Origin: Flavobacterium caseinilyticum
GTDB taxonomy: Bacteria; Bacteroidota; Bacteroidia; Flavobacteriales; Flavobacteriaceae
Assembly (NCBI RefSeq): GCF_004349085.1
Contig: NZ_SMFM01000002.1
Location: 558,001-622,000, forward strand
DNA length: 64,000 nt
Direction of reading: 5' to 3'
Shown: positions 52,288-60,494 of the stretch, one piece after another
Numbering within the stretch: the stretch's first letter is position 1
How the letters are laid out: the number at the start of each line of letters is the position of its first letter
Program-made: the position numbers and the translations under genes
Notes under the pieces: generated by a model
Database searches by the model: none
Told to the model about the DNA's origin: nothing
Seen by the model: only the letters and a program-made list of their open reading frames with translations

Positions 52288-53196
52288 TTACTCTTTTTTT
52301 GTTTTTAATTTGTTTACTGTGGCATTTAATTCAAAACCTAACAGCAAAATCATACAGTTGATCCAAATGTAAAACATCAGAATCAATAATGTTCCAATTG
52401 ACCCATATAATTCATTGTACTGTGAAAATTTTGTAACCCAAATTCCAAAAATATAAGAATCCAGAAGAACAAGAATAGTTGTAAATACGGAACCTATCGA
52501 GATAAAAGCCCTATTTTTGTCATGTTTCGTACCAAACTTGAAAAGTATAGAAGTTGTGACTAAAATCATTAAAATAATAAATGCATATCGTCCTAAAACA
52601 ATTAATTGAACTTGATCGCTGAAGACCGTTTTTTGTATTAATACCTCAAAAACGACTATAATCGCTACCGTTACTATTAATAATAATGACAGCAATAAAG
52701 ACATGCCAAACGCAACAAAATATTGGCGTATAAAACCTCTTTTGATCAAAACATGACGAGAAGTTTCAAAACCTCCCAAGATTCCATTCAATCCATTTGC
52801 CATCAAAAAAATTGACAATATGAATCCGGAAGATAATAATCCAGAATCACTATTAGTAAGAATGTCAGTGATGATTTTGTAAATTGCATCGTAGGTATTG
52901 GGCGGCACTCCGTCCTTGACAAACAACAGAAAATCTTCCTGAAAACCTTCAATAGGTATAAATGGAATTAAATTTAATATAAATAGTGCAAAAGGAAATA
53001 ATGCCATAAAAAAGCTAAATGCAATGGCACTGGCATGATAAGTCAGCGCACTTTCTACGATTCCTAAGCCATATAATTCGATCAAATCATACAAAGACAA
53101 ACCTTCTAACCAAGGTAGTTTTATCTTTTTTAAACCAAACATAAGATTCCGTACAATTGGAATTCTTCGAAGTTTCAATTCAATTTCTTTGCTCAT
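52288..53196 (-). CDS. YihY/BrkB family membrane protein
   Basis: Integral membrane protein of about 302 residues from ATG at 53194-53196 with six membrane segments. The family pattern shows as HASAIAFSFFMALFPFALFIL, SGFILSIFLMANGLNGI and LLILMFYIWINCMILLLGFELNA. Transport or envelope role unproven. A start 75 bp upstream is possible but would lie entirely within nadC. The ATG overlaps the nadC stop (ATGA), so the genes are translationally coupled. Confidence 0.88.
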   Translation of the reverse strand: MSKEIELKLRRIPIVRNLMFGLKKIKLPWLEGLSLYDLIELYGLGIVESALTYHASAIAFSFFMALFPFALFILNLIPFIPIEGFQEDFLLFVKDGVPPNTYDAIYKIITDILTNSDSGLLSSGFILSIFLMANGLNGILGGFETSRHVLIKRGFIRQYFVAFGMSLLLSLLLIVTVAIIVVFEVLIQKTVFSDQVQLIVLGRYAFIILMILVTTSILFKFGTKHDKNRAFISIGSVFTTILVLLDSYIFGIWVTKFSQYNELYGSIGTLLILMFYIWINCMILLLGFELNATVNKLKTKKE

Positions 53197-54050
53197 AATG
53201 CTTTCAAACTCAAATCCAAGTTGTATACGGAATGTGTCAGTGCGCCAGACGAAATATAATCTACGCCACATTCCGCATAATTCCGGATTGTGTTTTCGTT
53301 AATATTTCCAGAGGATTCTGTCAAGCATTTTCTACCTATTAAAGCGACTGCTTTTTTGGTATCCTCAAAATTAAAGTTGTCAATTAAAATTCTGTAAACG
53401 CCGTCGCTTTCAAGAATTTCTTTAATTTCATTTAGATTTCTGGCTTCAACAATGATTTTTAAATCCAGATTATTTTCTTTGAGATATGCTTTGGTTTTGG
53501 CTATGGCCAAAGTGATACCACCCGCAAAATCGTTGTGATTATCCTTGAGCATAATCATGTCATACAAAGCAAAACGATGGTTTTCGCCTCCGCCAATTTT
53601 GACTGCCCATTTCTCACAGGCTCTAAATCCAGGGGTTGTTTTTCGTGTGTCAAGGATTTTTGCATTTGTTCCCTCTAATAAAACAACAAAATTTTTAGTT
53701 TTAGTGGCGATAGCTGACATTCTTTGCATAGAATTTAAAACTACGCGTTCCGATTTTAAAATCGATTGTGAGCTTCCGGAAACATGGAAAACAATATCCC
53801 CTTTTTTCACTGGAGTTCCATCTTCGATAAAAGTTTCAATTTCCAAATTTGAATCAACATATTTAAAAACCATTTTAGCAAAAGCTACGCCGGCAATAAT
53901 ACCGTCTTCTTTGACCAATAATTTTGCTTTTCCATTTGCTGTCGCCGGAATACAGGCCAATGAACTGTAATCCCCTGGTCCAACATCTTCTCGTATGGCG
54001 TTCTCTATCAATATTTGCAACTCTGTTTGGAACTGTTTTTCATTAATCAT
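53193..54050 (-). CDS. nadC: nicotinate-nucleotide pyrophosphorylase (quinolinate phosphoribosyltransferase)
   Basis: Makes nicotinate mononucleotide from quinolinate and PRPP in de novo NAD synthesis. The 285-residue protein has the family landmarks REDVGPGDYSSL, ILDTRKTTPGFRACEKWAV (PRPP and quinolinate contacts), GGGENHRFALYDMIMLKDNH and the C-terminal ITESSGNI-like barrel motif (here CLTESSGNINEN). Length is normal. Upstream of, and overlapping by 4 bp, the BrkB-like gene. Confidence 0.97.
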   Translation of the reverse strand: MINEKQFQTELQILIENAIREDVGPGDYSSLACIPATANGKAKLLVKEDGIIAGVAFAKMVFKYVDSNLEIETFIEDGTPVKKGDIVFHVSGSSQSILKSERVVLNSMQRMSAIATKTKNFVVLLEGTNAKILDTRKTTPGFRACEKWAVKIGGGENHRFALYDMIMLKDNHNDFAGGITLAIAKTKAYLKENNLDLKIIVEARNLNEIKEILESDGVYRILIDNFNFEDTKKAVALIGRKCLTESSGNINENTIRNYAECGVDYISSGALTHSVYNLDLSLKAL

Positions 54051-54277: not shown

Positions 54278-54308
54278 TTGTCCTGTATTATTTAAAATCT
54301 TATATTTG
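54278..54308 (+). promoter_or_regulatory. promoter of the repeat lipoprotein
   Basis: TTG (54278-54280), 20 bases, TATATTTG (54301-54308): an exact match to the bacteroidetal promoter. Confidence 0.8.
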
Positions 54309-54331: not shown

Positions 54332-54799
54332 ATGAAATCTCTTTTAAGCCTCCTATTAGTCTCCTCATTATTATTGACTTCTTGCAAAAAAGAAGTTGAA
54401 ACTAAAAATAGTGCCAGTCCAACTAACGTAGTTCCTTTTACCGAAGTTGGTAAGCAGCTGCAAACGCAAACGCCAGTCCAGCAAAATCCTATTGTTGGTA
54501 ATACAAATAGCAATGTTACAAATGCCGTTTCAACAGGAATGAATCCTGCGCATGGTCAGCCGGGACATCGCTGTGACATTGCTGTAGGTGAACCACTAAA
54601 TTCTCCTGCACCCACAAATATAAACAAAGTCGCTGCACCCCAAATGATTACACAACCAAGTCAGCCTATTTCTGCAAATACGGCGACTGCTACGCCTGCA
54701 GCAGTAGCCGTGACGCCAACAGCTGAAGGAATGAATCCTCCTCATGGACAGACGAACCATCGCTGCGATATTGCTGTGGGTGCACCATTGTCAAAATAG
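54332..54799 (+). CDS. lipoprotein with two GMNPxHG/HRCDIAVG repeats
   Basis: A 155-residue exported lipoprotein (lipobox LLTSC, Cys18). The mature chain is low-complexity, rich in Thr, Pro, Asn and Gln, apart from two near-identical 22-residue modules at 69-90 and 133-154. Each reads GMNPxHGQxxHRCDIAVG then (E/A)PL. Each holds two histidines and one cysteine (His74, His79, Cys81; His138, His143, Cys145) in a tight cluster, which suggests metal or haem binding (inference). I know the same short module from other Bacteroidetes proteins but know no function for it. Strong own promoter. Confidence 0.85.
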   Translation: MKSLLSLLLVSSLLLTSCKKEVETKNSASPTNVVPFTEVGKQLQTQTPVQQNPIVGNTNSNVTNAVSTGMNPAHGQPGHRCDIAVGEPLNSPAPTNINKVAAPQMITQPSQPISANTATATPAAVAVTPTAEGMNPPHGQTNHRCDIAVGAPLSK

Positions 54800-59066: not shown

Positions 59067-60494
59067 ATGAAAACGAAATTGTTACTATTGAGTCTGTTGG
59101 CTTCTGTTTTCGCAACACATATACAAGCGCAAGACAGGACATCGGTACATGCGATGAATTCCGAAATCAGCGATAATCTTGACTTAAGAGCTGTTGCTTC
59201 GATTTTTGGTGATTCTAGAAACTTACAGGATTTCGAAAGACGCCTGAATGATCCGGAACTTCAAATATCTAATTTAGATTTGAATAACGATAATCAAGTT
59301 GATTATTTGCGGGTTATCGAAACGGTCGAAAATCGAACCCACGTAATCATAGTTCAATCTGTTCTTGATCGAGATGTTTATCAAGATGTTGCAACTATCG
59401 ACGTAGAGAAAGACAGTAACAACAGAATTCACGTACAGGTAGTAGGGGATGTTTTTATGTATGGTCGCAATTATATTTATGAGCCTGTTTATTACAGCAC
59501 TCCGCTAATTTATGCTTCCTTTTGGTCTGCTAATTACAGTCCTTATTACTCATCTTGGAATTGGAATTATTATCCTTCTTACTATTACGCATGGAATCCA
59601 TTCCCAGTTTTTCGATACAGGAATAACATTAACATCAACATCAATATTAACAATAATTACAATTATGTTAATTTTAGAAGAAGTAGTCGAGCTGTAGTTT
59701 TACATAATTCACGACGTTCAAACGGATATGAACGACAAAATCCAAACTATGCATTTTCGAGTAGAAATGCTAATGTTGCAAACAGATATGAATTAGATCA
59801 ACGAAGAGGTTTAAGAAATGATATGAGCTATTCCAATAAAAGAGCTAACACTTCAAGAGATTTTTCTCAAAACAGATTGAGTAATTCAAGAGAAGCTACA
59901 ACACAAAGAGCTAGTTCACCAAGAGATTATTCTCAAAACAGGACTAGTCCTTCAAACCAGGCAACTCCTCAACGGGGAAATTCTCAAAGAGATAATGCTC
60001 AAAACAGGACCAGTACATCAAGTCAGGCAACTCCGCAACGGGGAAATTCTCAAAGAGATTATGCTCAAAACAGGACCAGTACATCAAGTCAGGCAACTCC
60101 GCAACGAGGAAATTCTCAAAGAGATTATGCTCAAAACAGGACCAGTACATCAAGTCAGGCAACTCCGCAACGAGGAAATTCTCAAAGAGATTATGCTCAA
60201 AACAGTACTAGTCCATCAAGTCAGGCAACTCCGAAAAGAGACTATTCTCAAAACAAAACTAGTCCTTCCAGAGAATCGGCATCACAAAGAGCTGAATCTC
60301 AAAACAGAGGAAACTCTTCAAGAGAAGCTGCGCCACAAAGAACTGAATCTCAAAATAGAGTAAACGCCTCAAGAGAAGCTGCGCCACAAAGAGCTGCAAG
60401 TCAAAACAGAGGAAACTCTTCAAGAGAAGCTGCACCTCAGAGAATTGAATCTCAGAGAGGTAATTCATCCAGAAATGAAAGCAGAAGATCGTAA
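59067..60494 (+). CDS. secreted protein with low-complexity, tandem-repeat C-terminus
   Basis: A 475-residue exported protein: signal peptide to about residue 21 (THIQAQ), a conserved-looking N-terminal domain (about 30-135), then a Tyr/Trp/Asn-rich stretch (SYYYAWNPFPVF) and a long basic Ser/Gln/Arg/Asn tail. The tail includes four near-perfect 22-residue repeats reading NRTSTSSQATPQRGNSQRDY plus AQ (DNA 59937-60200), followed by shorter SREAAPQR units. Repeat number probably varies between strains. Function unknown; surface or matrix role is a guess. Confidence 0.82.
   Translation: MKTKLLLLSLLASVFATHIQAQDRTSVHAMNSEISDNLDLRAVASIFGDSRNLQDFERRLNDPELQISNLDLNNDNQVDYLRVIETVENRTHVIIVQSVLDRDVYQDVATIDVEKDSNNRIHVQVVGDVFMYGRNYIYEPVYYSTPLIYASFWSANYSPYYSSWNWNYYPSYYYAWNPFPVFRYRNNININININNNYNYVNFRRSSRAVVLHNSRRSNGYERQNPNYAFSSRNANVANRYELDQRRGLRNDMSYSNKRANTSRDFSQNRLSNSREATTQRASSPRDYSQNRTSPSNQATPQRGNSQRDNAQNRTSTSSQATPQRGNSQRDYAQNRTSTSSQATPQRGNSQRDYAQNRTSTSSQATPQRGNSQRDYAQNSTSPSSQATPKRDYSQNKTSPSRESASQRAESQNRGNSSREAAPQRTESQNRVNASREAAPQRAASQNRGNSSREAAPQRIESQRGNSSRNESRRS
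59937..60200. repeat. four 66-bp tandem repeats inside the secreted protein gene
   Basis: Units start at 59937, 60003, 60069 and 60135, in frame with the gene; the last three are almost identical, the first is slightly diverged. A fifth, partial unit begins at 60201. Confidence 0.92.

Follow-up and report, generated by a model that had tools for sequence, protein, structure and literature searches.

The window, that is, the whole 64,000-nucleotide stretch of Flavobacterium caseinilyticum DNA analysed here, contains a gene for a lipoprotein that carries two copies of a short module with clustered histidines and cysteine on a chain otherwise predicted to be disordered (Table 1). Judging from its sequence and those of its relatives, it probably belongs to an undescribed type of metal-binding protein held on a tether. 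The explanation that we prefer, at a likelihood somewhat short of even, is that it serves as a membrane-tethered buffer or relay for a soft metal, probably Cu(I), with one H-x4-H-x-C site per module. The modules are under purifying selection, and in one bacterial family, f2, the gene stands close to a TonB receptor gene in most of the genomes that carry it.

The module lipoprotein and its promoter

The signal peptide of the protein ends in the lipobox LLTSC, by which it qualifies as a bacterial lipoprotein. The chain that follows Cys18 is rich in Pro, Thr, Gln, Ala, Ser and Asn, and is interrupted by two modules of 23 residues each, 74% identical to one another, which share a 19-residue core of the pattern NPxHGxPxHxCxxxVGxxL. 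In the AF2 model (36 sequences; pTM 0.27) a helix is found at residues 2–18, and the modules (pLDDT 80–88) stand out from the linkers (pLDDT 41–60). The reading of the open frame bears out the initial annotation, which had described two modules in the disordered chain of a lipoprotein. The protein occurs once in its own genome, where its two modules are the only good matches.

Table 1 Position and composition of the module lipoprotein gene and its upstream site in the window
Feature	Position	Strand	Remarks
Module lipoprotein gene, 155 aa	54332–54799	+	Read directly; homologues found in other genomes
Promoter-like site, Bacteroidota type	54278–54308	+	Read, and pattern match; 23 nt before the ATG
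Parts of the promoter-like site: TTG, 20-nt spacer, TATATTTG	54278–54280 (TTG); 54301–54308 (TATATTTG)	+	
Signal peptide and lipobox (..LLTSC, Cys18), then KKEVE	54332–54385	+	
Linker 1, predicted disordered, without His/Cys	54386–54535	+	Block pLDDT 41–54, residues 21–60
Module 1, GMNPAHGQPGHRCDIAVGEPLNS	54536–54604	+	Block pLDDT 86–88
Module 1 conserved core, N71–L89	54542–54598	+	His74, His79, Cys81
Linker 2, predicted disordered, without His/Cys	54605–54727	+	Block pLDDT 41–60
Module 2, GMNPPHGQTNHRCDIAVGAPLSK, at the C-terminus	54728–54796	+	Block pLDDT 80–85
Module 2 core, N135–L153	54734–54790	+	His138, His143, Cys145

The site upstream of the gene, with its TTG, 20-nt spacer and TATATTTG, agrees with the Bacteroidota promoter consensus. 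Of 100 module genes, 72 have a TAnnTTTG box in the 160 nt preceding them, compared with 10% of random 163-mers from the same loci; the full TTG plus TAnnTTTG form is present in 20 of the 100 upstream regions, compared with 1.2% of random segments. The sequence match and the enrichment of the box both favour the strong promoter that had been claimed for this gene, which stands as a predicted one. Given this site, the module gene is probably transcribed alone in Flavobacterium, as a unit of its own. In the related locus L064, the neighbouring gene at the place of the window ORF at 53193–54050 is nadC by NCBIfam. Further along the window, a 475-aa ORF at 59067–60494 (+ strand) has a C-terminal half composed of tandem repeats of about 22 residues of the SSQATPQRGNSQRDYAQNRTST type, recognised by eye; an open frame at 59995–60363 overlaps it.

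Lipoproteins are also found among the relatives: of 120 module proteins, 112 have a lipobox by rule and four more by eye, and one (L078) has a mis-called start. Cys18 is invariant in one set of 14 proteins, and in a set of 36 that had been chosen beforehand by a lipobox rule. The remaining three proteins (L150, L151 and L166) have an N-terminal hydrophobic segment and no lipobox cysteine, and are apparently anchored by an N-terminal helix in place of the lipid. This suggests that the modules are able to function facing the periplasm. Regarding the alternative location at the cell surface, the export (LES) consensus is given in PMC5080379 as C-X-K-(D/E)2-X for C. canimorsus and SDDFE for F. johnsoniae. 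The window protein reads C-K-K-E-V-E, with a single acidic residue directly after the K, and export by the strict consensus was rejected; it may carry a degenerate surface-export signal.

Conservation and distribution of the module

Asn3, Pro4, His6, Gly7, His11, Cys13 and Gly18 are invariant in all 284 modules that an HMM detected in 120 loci; the 120 source proteins were first chosen by a regular expression for the core, so that the fit of one module or more in each is built into the selection, and recovery free of this expression applies only to their further modules. Leu21 (283/284) and Val17 (276/284) are nearly invariant. Position 2 is occupied by M in 150, L in 76, V in 16 and I in 14 of the 284 modules, a mixture indicating that methionine is merely a hydrophobic residue there. 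Arg12 and Asp14 are replaceable (HDCA, HTCA, HRCE and others), the histidines and the cysteine never; a lack of their conservation, by which the initial annotation would have been refuted, was not found. At the DNA level, 230 modules from 100 proteins (that of the window and those of 99 loci) have 230 different sequences, with a raw pS of 0.78 and a pN of 0.12; for pairs within a gene the values are 0.68 and 0.10. This number of distinct sequences and the difference between pS and pN place the motif beyond chance. The same values, those within genes included, indicate that the repeats are old and have been kept by selection on the peptide.

The copy number and the linkers were analysed in 119 proteins, L078 being excluded on account of its start. 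Two modules are present in 74 proteins, three in 40, four in three and one in two, so that 117 of the 119 have at least two. The core of the last module stops 0–3 residues from the end of the protein in 96 of them. The linkers vary between relatives. In 106 of the 119 proteins His and Cys are confined to the modules, and His makes up 0.08% of the 13,520 linker residues; seven cysteines scored as linker are actually within signal or lipobox stretches.

Regarding the distribution of the module, the profile used (A1) contains 27 of 39 modules selected by regular expression, the other 12 being C-terminal ones of fewer than 23 residues. With it, 39 of 395 genomes of the class match at E 0.01, three weakly (G260, G399 and G407; E 0.003–0.006), and further weak matches are second places in G357 and G454 (E 0.002–0.008 for the weak set). 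The module is carried by 64 of 148 genomes of f2, and a sample of the phylum yielded matches at E 1e-4 in 22 of 296 genomes, all from three families known from the other searches. The whole window protein is matched in 19 of 149 genomes of its own family, its own genome included; the match in G126 (E 3e-4) runs through stops, and no module was found there. The window is Flavobacterium-like, both in the closest relatives of the protein and in the gene next to it, which has its counterpart in L064. A pattern scan of named genomes gave at least 588 confirmed stretches, and 80 loci were kept. Among the matches listed are Flavobacterium, Pedobacter, Solitalea, Ferruginibacter, Cloacibacterium, Chryseobacterium, Chitinophagaceae, Sphingobacteriaceae, Flavobacteriaceae and one MAG labelled Zixibacteria (L134), a 3-kb contig that is perhaps misbinned. 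No match was found in the plasmids searched, and of the viral sequences 24 stretches fit the peptide pattern, none of which was confirmed. The motif is thus not confined to one gene, which would have refuted the initial annotation; the variety of fused domains expected from it was not found, since the profile detects one small protein per locus, with one to four copies of the module, and no domain fusion was seen for the 120 hits in 120 loci (ORFs of at least 70 aa).

Neither the window protein nor its modules could be assigned to a family by searches of Pfam, NCBIfam and PDB, so that the description of a clustered His/His/Cys motif without described function holds. The module matches nothing in the Pfam and NCBIfam collections searched, though many families of the class have members that carry it. 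A PDB zinc finger match (E 3.7) and a match to Attacin_N by one of 27 modules (E 0.085) were taken as chance. NF052634 (Riean_0653) aligned with residues 1–42 (E 0.024; 15.5 bits against a cut-off of 57), leaving the modules unmatched. Searches of the open literature for the module motif strings found none. In the accessible parts of two papers on copper and TonB receptors (PMC11213822 and PMC12914433) the module protein was not encountered.

Gene neighbourhoods within and outside family f2

A Chryseobacterium record, L137, falls within family f2; L137, L227 and G549 are one and the same contig, and so are not independent. The module gene and a gene for a TonB receptor, always of the same receptor family, are at most 5 kb apart on one strand in 55 of the 64 module-bearing genomes of f2; the receptor follows the module gene in 31 of them and precedes it in 24. 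The nine genomes without this linkage are from the genera g349 (5), g366 (3) and g357 (1). In 15 of 20 f2 loci examined the receptor is within two genes of the module gene, and the gap to the adjoining gene of the unit ranges from −19 to 33 nt in 13 of these and from 171 to 201 nt in the other two. The two receptors tested, from L164 and L137, pass the Pfam cut-offs for both HMA and the TonB barrel. Their HMA scores are 32.6 and 33.2 bits, respectively, against a cut-off of 24.8, and no single HMA stretch of L137 passes alone. The other f2 receptors have a CxxC-bearing start, recognised by reading only. In L164 (8805–11468) and L137 (8760–11459) the HMA domain is fused to the receptor N-terminus; in L236–L239, from other families, a separate small HMA-like protein adjoins the receptor.

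A Cys-rich protein of about 120 residues is usually found between or beside the module and receptor genes of f2. In L164 (8334–8699) and L137 (8292–8660) a Cys-rich secreted protein with a WQPPKIG end occupies the place of HYC_CC_PP; neither protein matches a family, apart from one chance-level hit of that from L164 far below the cut-off, nor does either match NF047658. Three gene orders were observed: kinase, regulator, module, Cys-rich protein, receptor; Cys-rich protein, receptor, module; and Cys-rich protein, HMA-like protein, receptor, module. The two main orders occupy different neighbourhoods, either after the kinase/regulator pair or behind the receptor next to an MsrB-like gene, in a neighbourhood that also has a SufA-like gene. 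In genus g349 (L251 and L252) this second neighbourhood holds the Cys-rich protein and the receptor without the module gene, and the same pair is kept in five f2 genomes that are devoid of the module (L246–L250). The receptor is present in all 64 module-bearing f2 genomes and in 11 of 16 module-less ones searched, out of 84. The intact pair without the module, together with the different neighbourhoods, points to the module gene being an add-on to this locus, which it seems to have joined at least twice; alternatively, the orders may be due to local movement with loss.

Outside f2, the module and the receptor lie within 5 kb of each other in none of the 38 genomes that have both genes. At E values up to 1e-25 the receptor was detected in 38 of 46 non-f2 genomes with the module and in 21 of 34 without it (p 0.043), a weak association in which kinship is ignored, two weaker receptor hits among the 34 are scored as absent, and the controls were hand-picked from the genomes listed, some of them being negative only for the whole-protein search. 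HYC_CC_PP is not associated with the module (39 of 46 genomes with it, 30 of 34 without). Among the neighbours within about 8 kb, the most frequent cluster occurs in 23 of 120 loci, and in six of 39 in one subset of loci, a low recurrence indicating that neighbours are shared only among close relatives. No conserved partner was found outside f2 in a set of 101 neighbour proteins (one per immediate-neighbour cluster, 80–900 aa, from 65 loci, the f2-type L112 and L137 included), in which the commonest Pfam family, within the first 25 of 173 families, accounts for three. In several non-f2 lineages the receptor stands beside HYC_CC_PP and small HMA-like proteins.

Proposed metal buffering and alternative functions

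The lipid anchor would hold this envelope protein in the membrane, and its flexible Pro/Thr/Gln-rich chain would display one to four near-identical mini-modules, each presenting His-x4-His-x-Cys framed by invariant Asn-Pro and Gly residues. Each module would most likely take one soft metal ion. Cu(I) is the first candidate, since the best NCBIfam relatives of the HMA domains, below cut-off, are copper or mercury chaperones. The tethered protein would thereby buffer metal or relay it, whether in the periplasm or on the outer membrane; in f2, the metal would be the one handled by the adjoining HMA-bearing TonB receptor and the Cys-rich protein. From the invariant His and Cys, the linkers poor in both residues, the flexible tether and the heavy-metal type of the f2 locus we infer metal binding, the identity of the metal, the role as buffer or relay, and the extension of this role from f2 to Flavobacterium. 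A more elaborate version is possible, and more tentative. Each 19-residue unit would be an autonomous miniature metal site, its H-x4-H-x-C loop closed by its own Asn-Pro/Val-Gly frame and carried in one to four copies on the flexible tether in Bacteroidota. It would work in relay with the HMA-fused TonB receptor, as a partnership of Weeksellaceae-like bacteria, and the whole would represent an undescribed type of envelope metal-trafficking protein. A module that does bind metal would amount to a recurrent metal site of very small size, easily synthesised, and would add a tether or relay step to a little-known metal import route of Bacteroidota; the f2 linkage gives this motif without described function a direct and cheap test.

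Several observations count against metal binding. Outside f2, recurrent adjacency to a metal gene is absent (0/38), and co-occurrence of the module is weak with the receptor and lacking with HYC_CC_PP. The invariant Asn, Pro and Gly and the nearly invariant Val and Leu exceed the needs of bare metal ligation and would suit protein docking equally well. In addition, part of the linkage in f2 may reflect a gene order passed on by descent. As the conserved frame is larger than ligation needs, the main rival, doubtful in our judgement, is that the modules form a multivalent short linear docking motif for a conserved envelope protein, such as a TonB receptor plug or another periplasmic machine, in which His and Cys would serve recognition or a disulfide instead of metal. 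The conservation of the core beyond His and Cys (N, P and G in 284/284, L in 283/284, V in 276/284) is in line with it, as are the repeats on linkers predicted to be disordered, with the last one at the C-terminus (96/119), a disposition typical of multivalent ligands. However, no partner can be named, given that the commonest neighbour cluster reaches only 23/120 loci (6/39 in the subset), and the receptor is absent from eight of the 46 module-bearing non-f2 genomes. Docking alone also leaves the scarcity of His and Cys in the linkers unexplained.

An unlikely role is that of a thiol-redox protein or scaffold, in which the module cysteine would make a disulfide with another module or with a client, as an envelope thiol buffer. 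One invariant cysteine per module and at least two modules in 117 of 119 proteins would suit such a role, but the two invariant histidines have no place in it, two proteins have a single module, and no Dsb-like gene was recognised among the neighbours read or in the first 25 of 173 families. It is less likely still that the modules are core peptides of a modified precursor. Copper-binding bufferins and methanobactins carry cysteines modified by MNIO (DUF692) enzymes; the module protein resembles such peptides in its short, conserved, Cys-bearing cores repeated in a variable chain and in the link to copper, given the heavy-metal type of the genes next to it in f2. It differs from them in being an anchored lipoprotein and not a released peptide, and the enzyme is missing from 24 of 25 module-bearing genomes, the window's own included. 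PF05114 was found only in G169, on another contig, and no modifying enzyme was recognised beside the gene among the neighbours read or in the first 25 of 173 families, which makes this explanation improbable. Haem binding, which the initial annotation had placed beside metal binding, is the least credible: His and Cys are common haem ligands, and in one of the 46 loci read (L167) an ORF that resembles cytochrome c and has CAACH is found on the opposite strand, at a distance of two genes, but the module has no CxxCH, and Pfam, NCBIfam and PDB gave no related haem protein. The metal half of that proposal is the one favoured by the His/Cys-poor linkers and by the HMA/TonB linkage of f2.

Regarding known metal proteins that a tethered buffer or relay might resemble, PcoE is a periplasmic metal sponge, and the motif of SilE and PcoE has the form HX2M. 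SilE, from the sil operon, is described in PMC5008109 as a molecular sponge with His- and Met-containing metal motifs, which becomes folded when Ag+ is bound, and the module protein is like it in being a chain of the envelope, predicted to be disordered in its linkers, with short motifs of metal-ligating side chains. Unlike SilE, it has His-x4-His-x-Cys, a large invariant frame and a membrane anchor, and the sequences are unrelated. Membership of the SilE/PcoE group was rejected, the only invariant metal-type residues of the module being His and Cys, with no His/Met motif; at best, the module protein would work like SilE. A chaperone of the HMA/CopZ type was also rejected, as the window protein has no Pfam match and no CxxC. 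With the loci that combine HYC_CC_PP, a TonB receptor and HMA (NF047658, PF00593 and PF00403) the module gene shares the adjoining receptor in f2; unlike the genes of those loci, it encodes no HMA domain, is not HYC_CC_PP (no match of the window protein to NF047658, cut-off 28 bits) and is unlinked to the receptor outside f2. The open literature searched for HYC_CC_PP gave none.

In favour of the metal reading, the own genome of F. caseinilyticum also has such a locus, with HYC_CC_PP, TonB receptor and small HMA-like protein encoded one after another on contig C1, which is not the contig of the window (L232 6321–9187; G000:C1, about 815.3–818.2 kb). A third module match in this genome (E 0.375), which crosses a stop and involves a MerT/HMA-like ORF, so assigned by reading, with a VNPPH end, is probably due to chance. 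The positions concerned are L033 (G000:C27:71210–71251) and G000:C27:1134–1412, on a contig that also has a second HYC_CC_PP gene.
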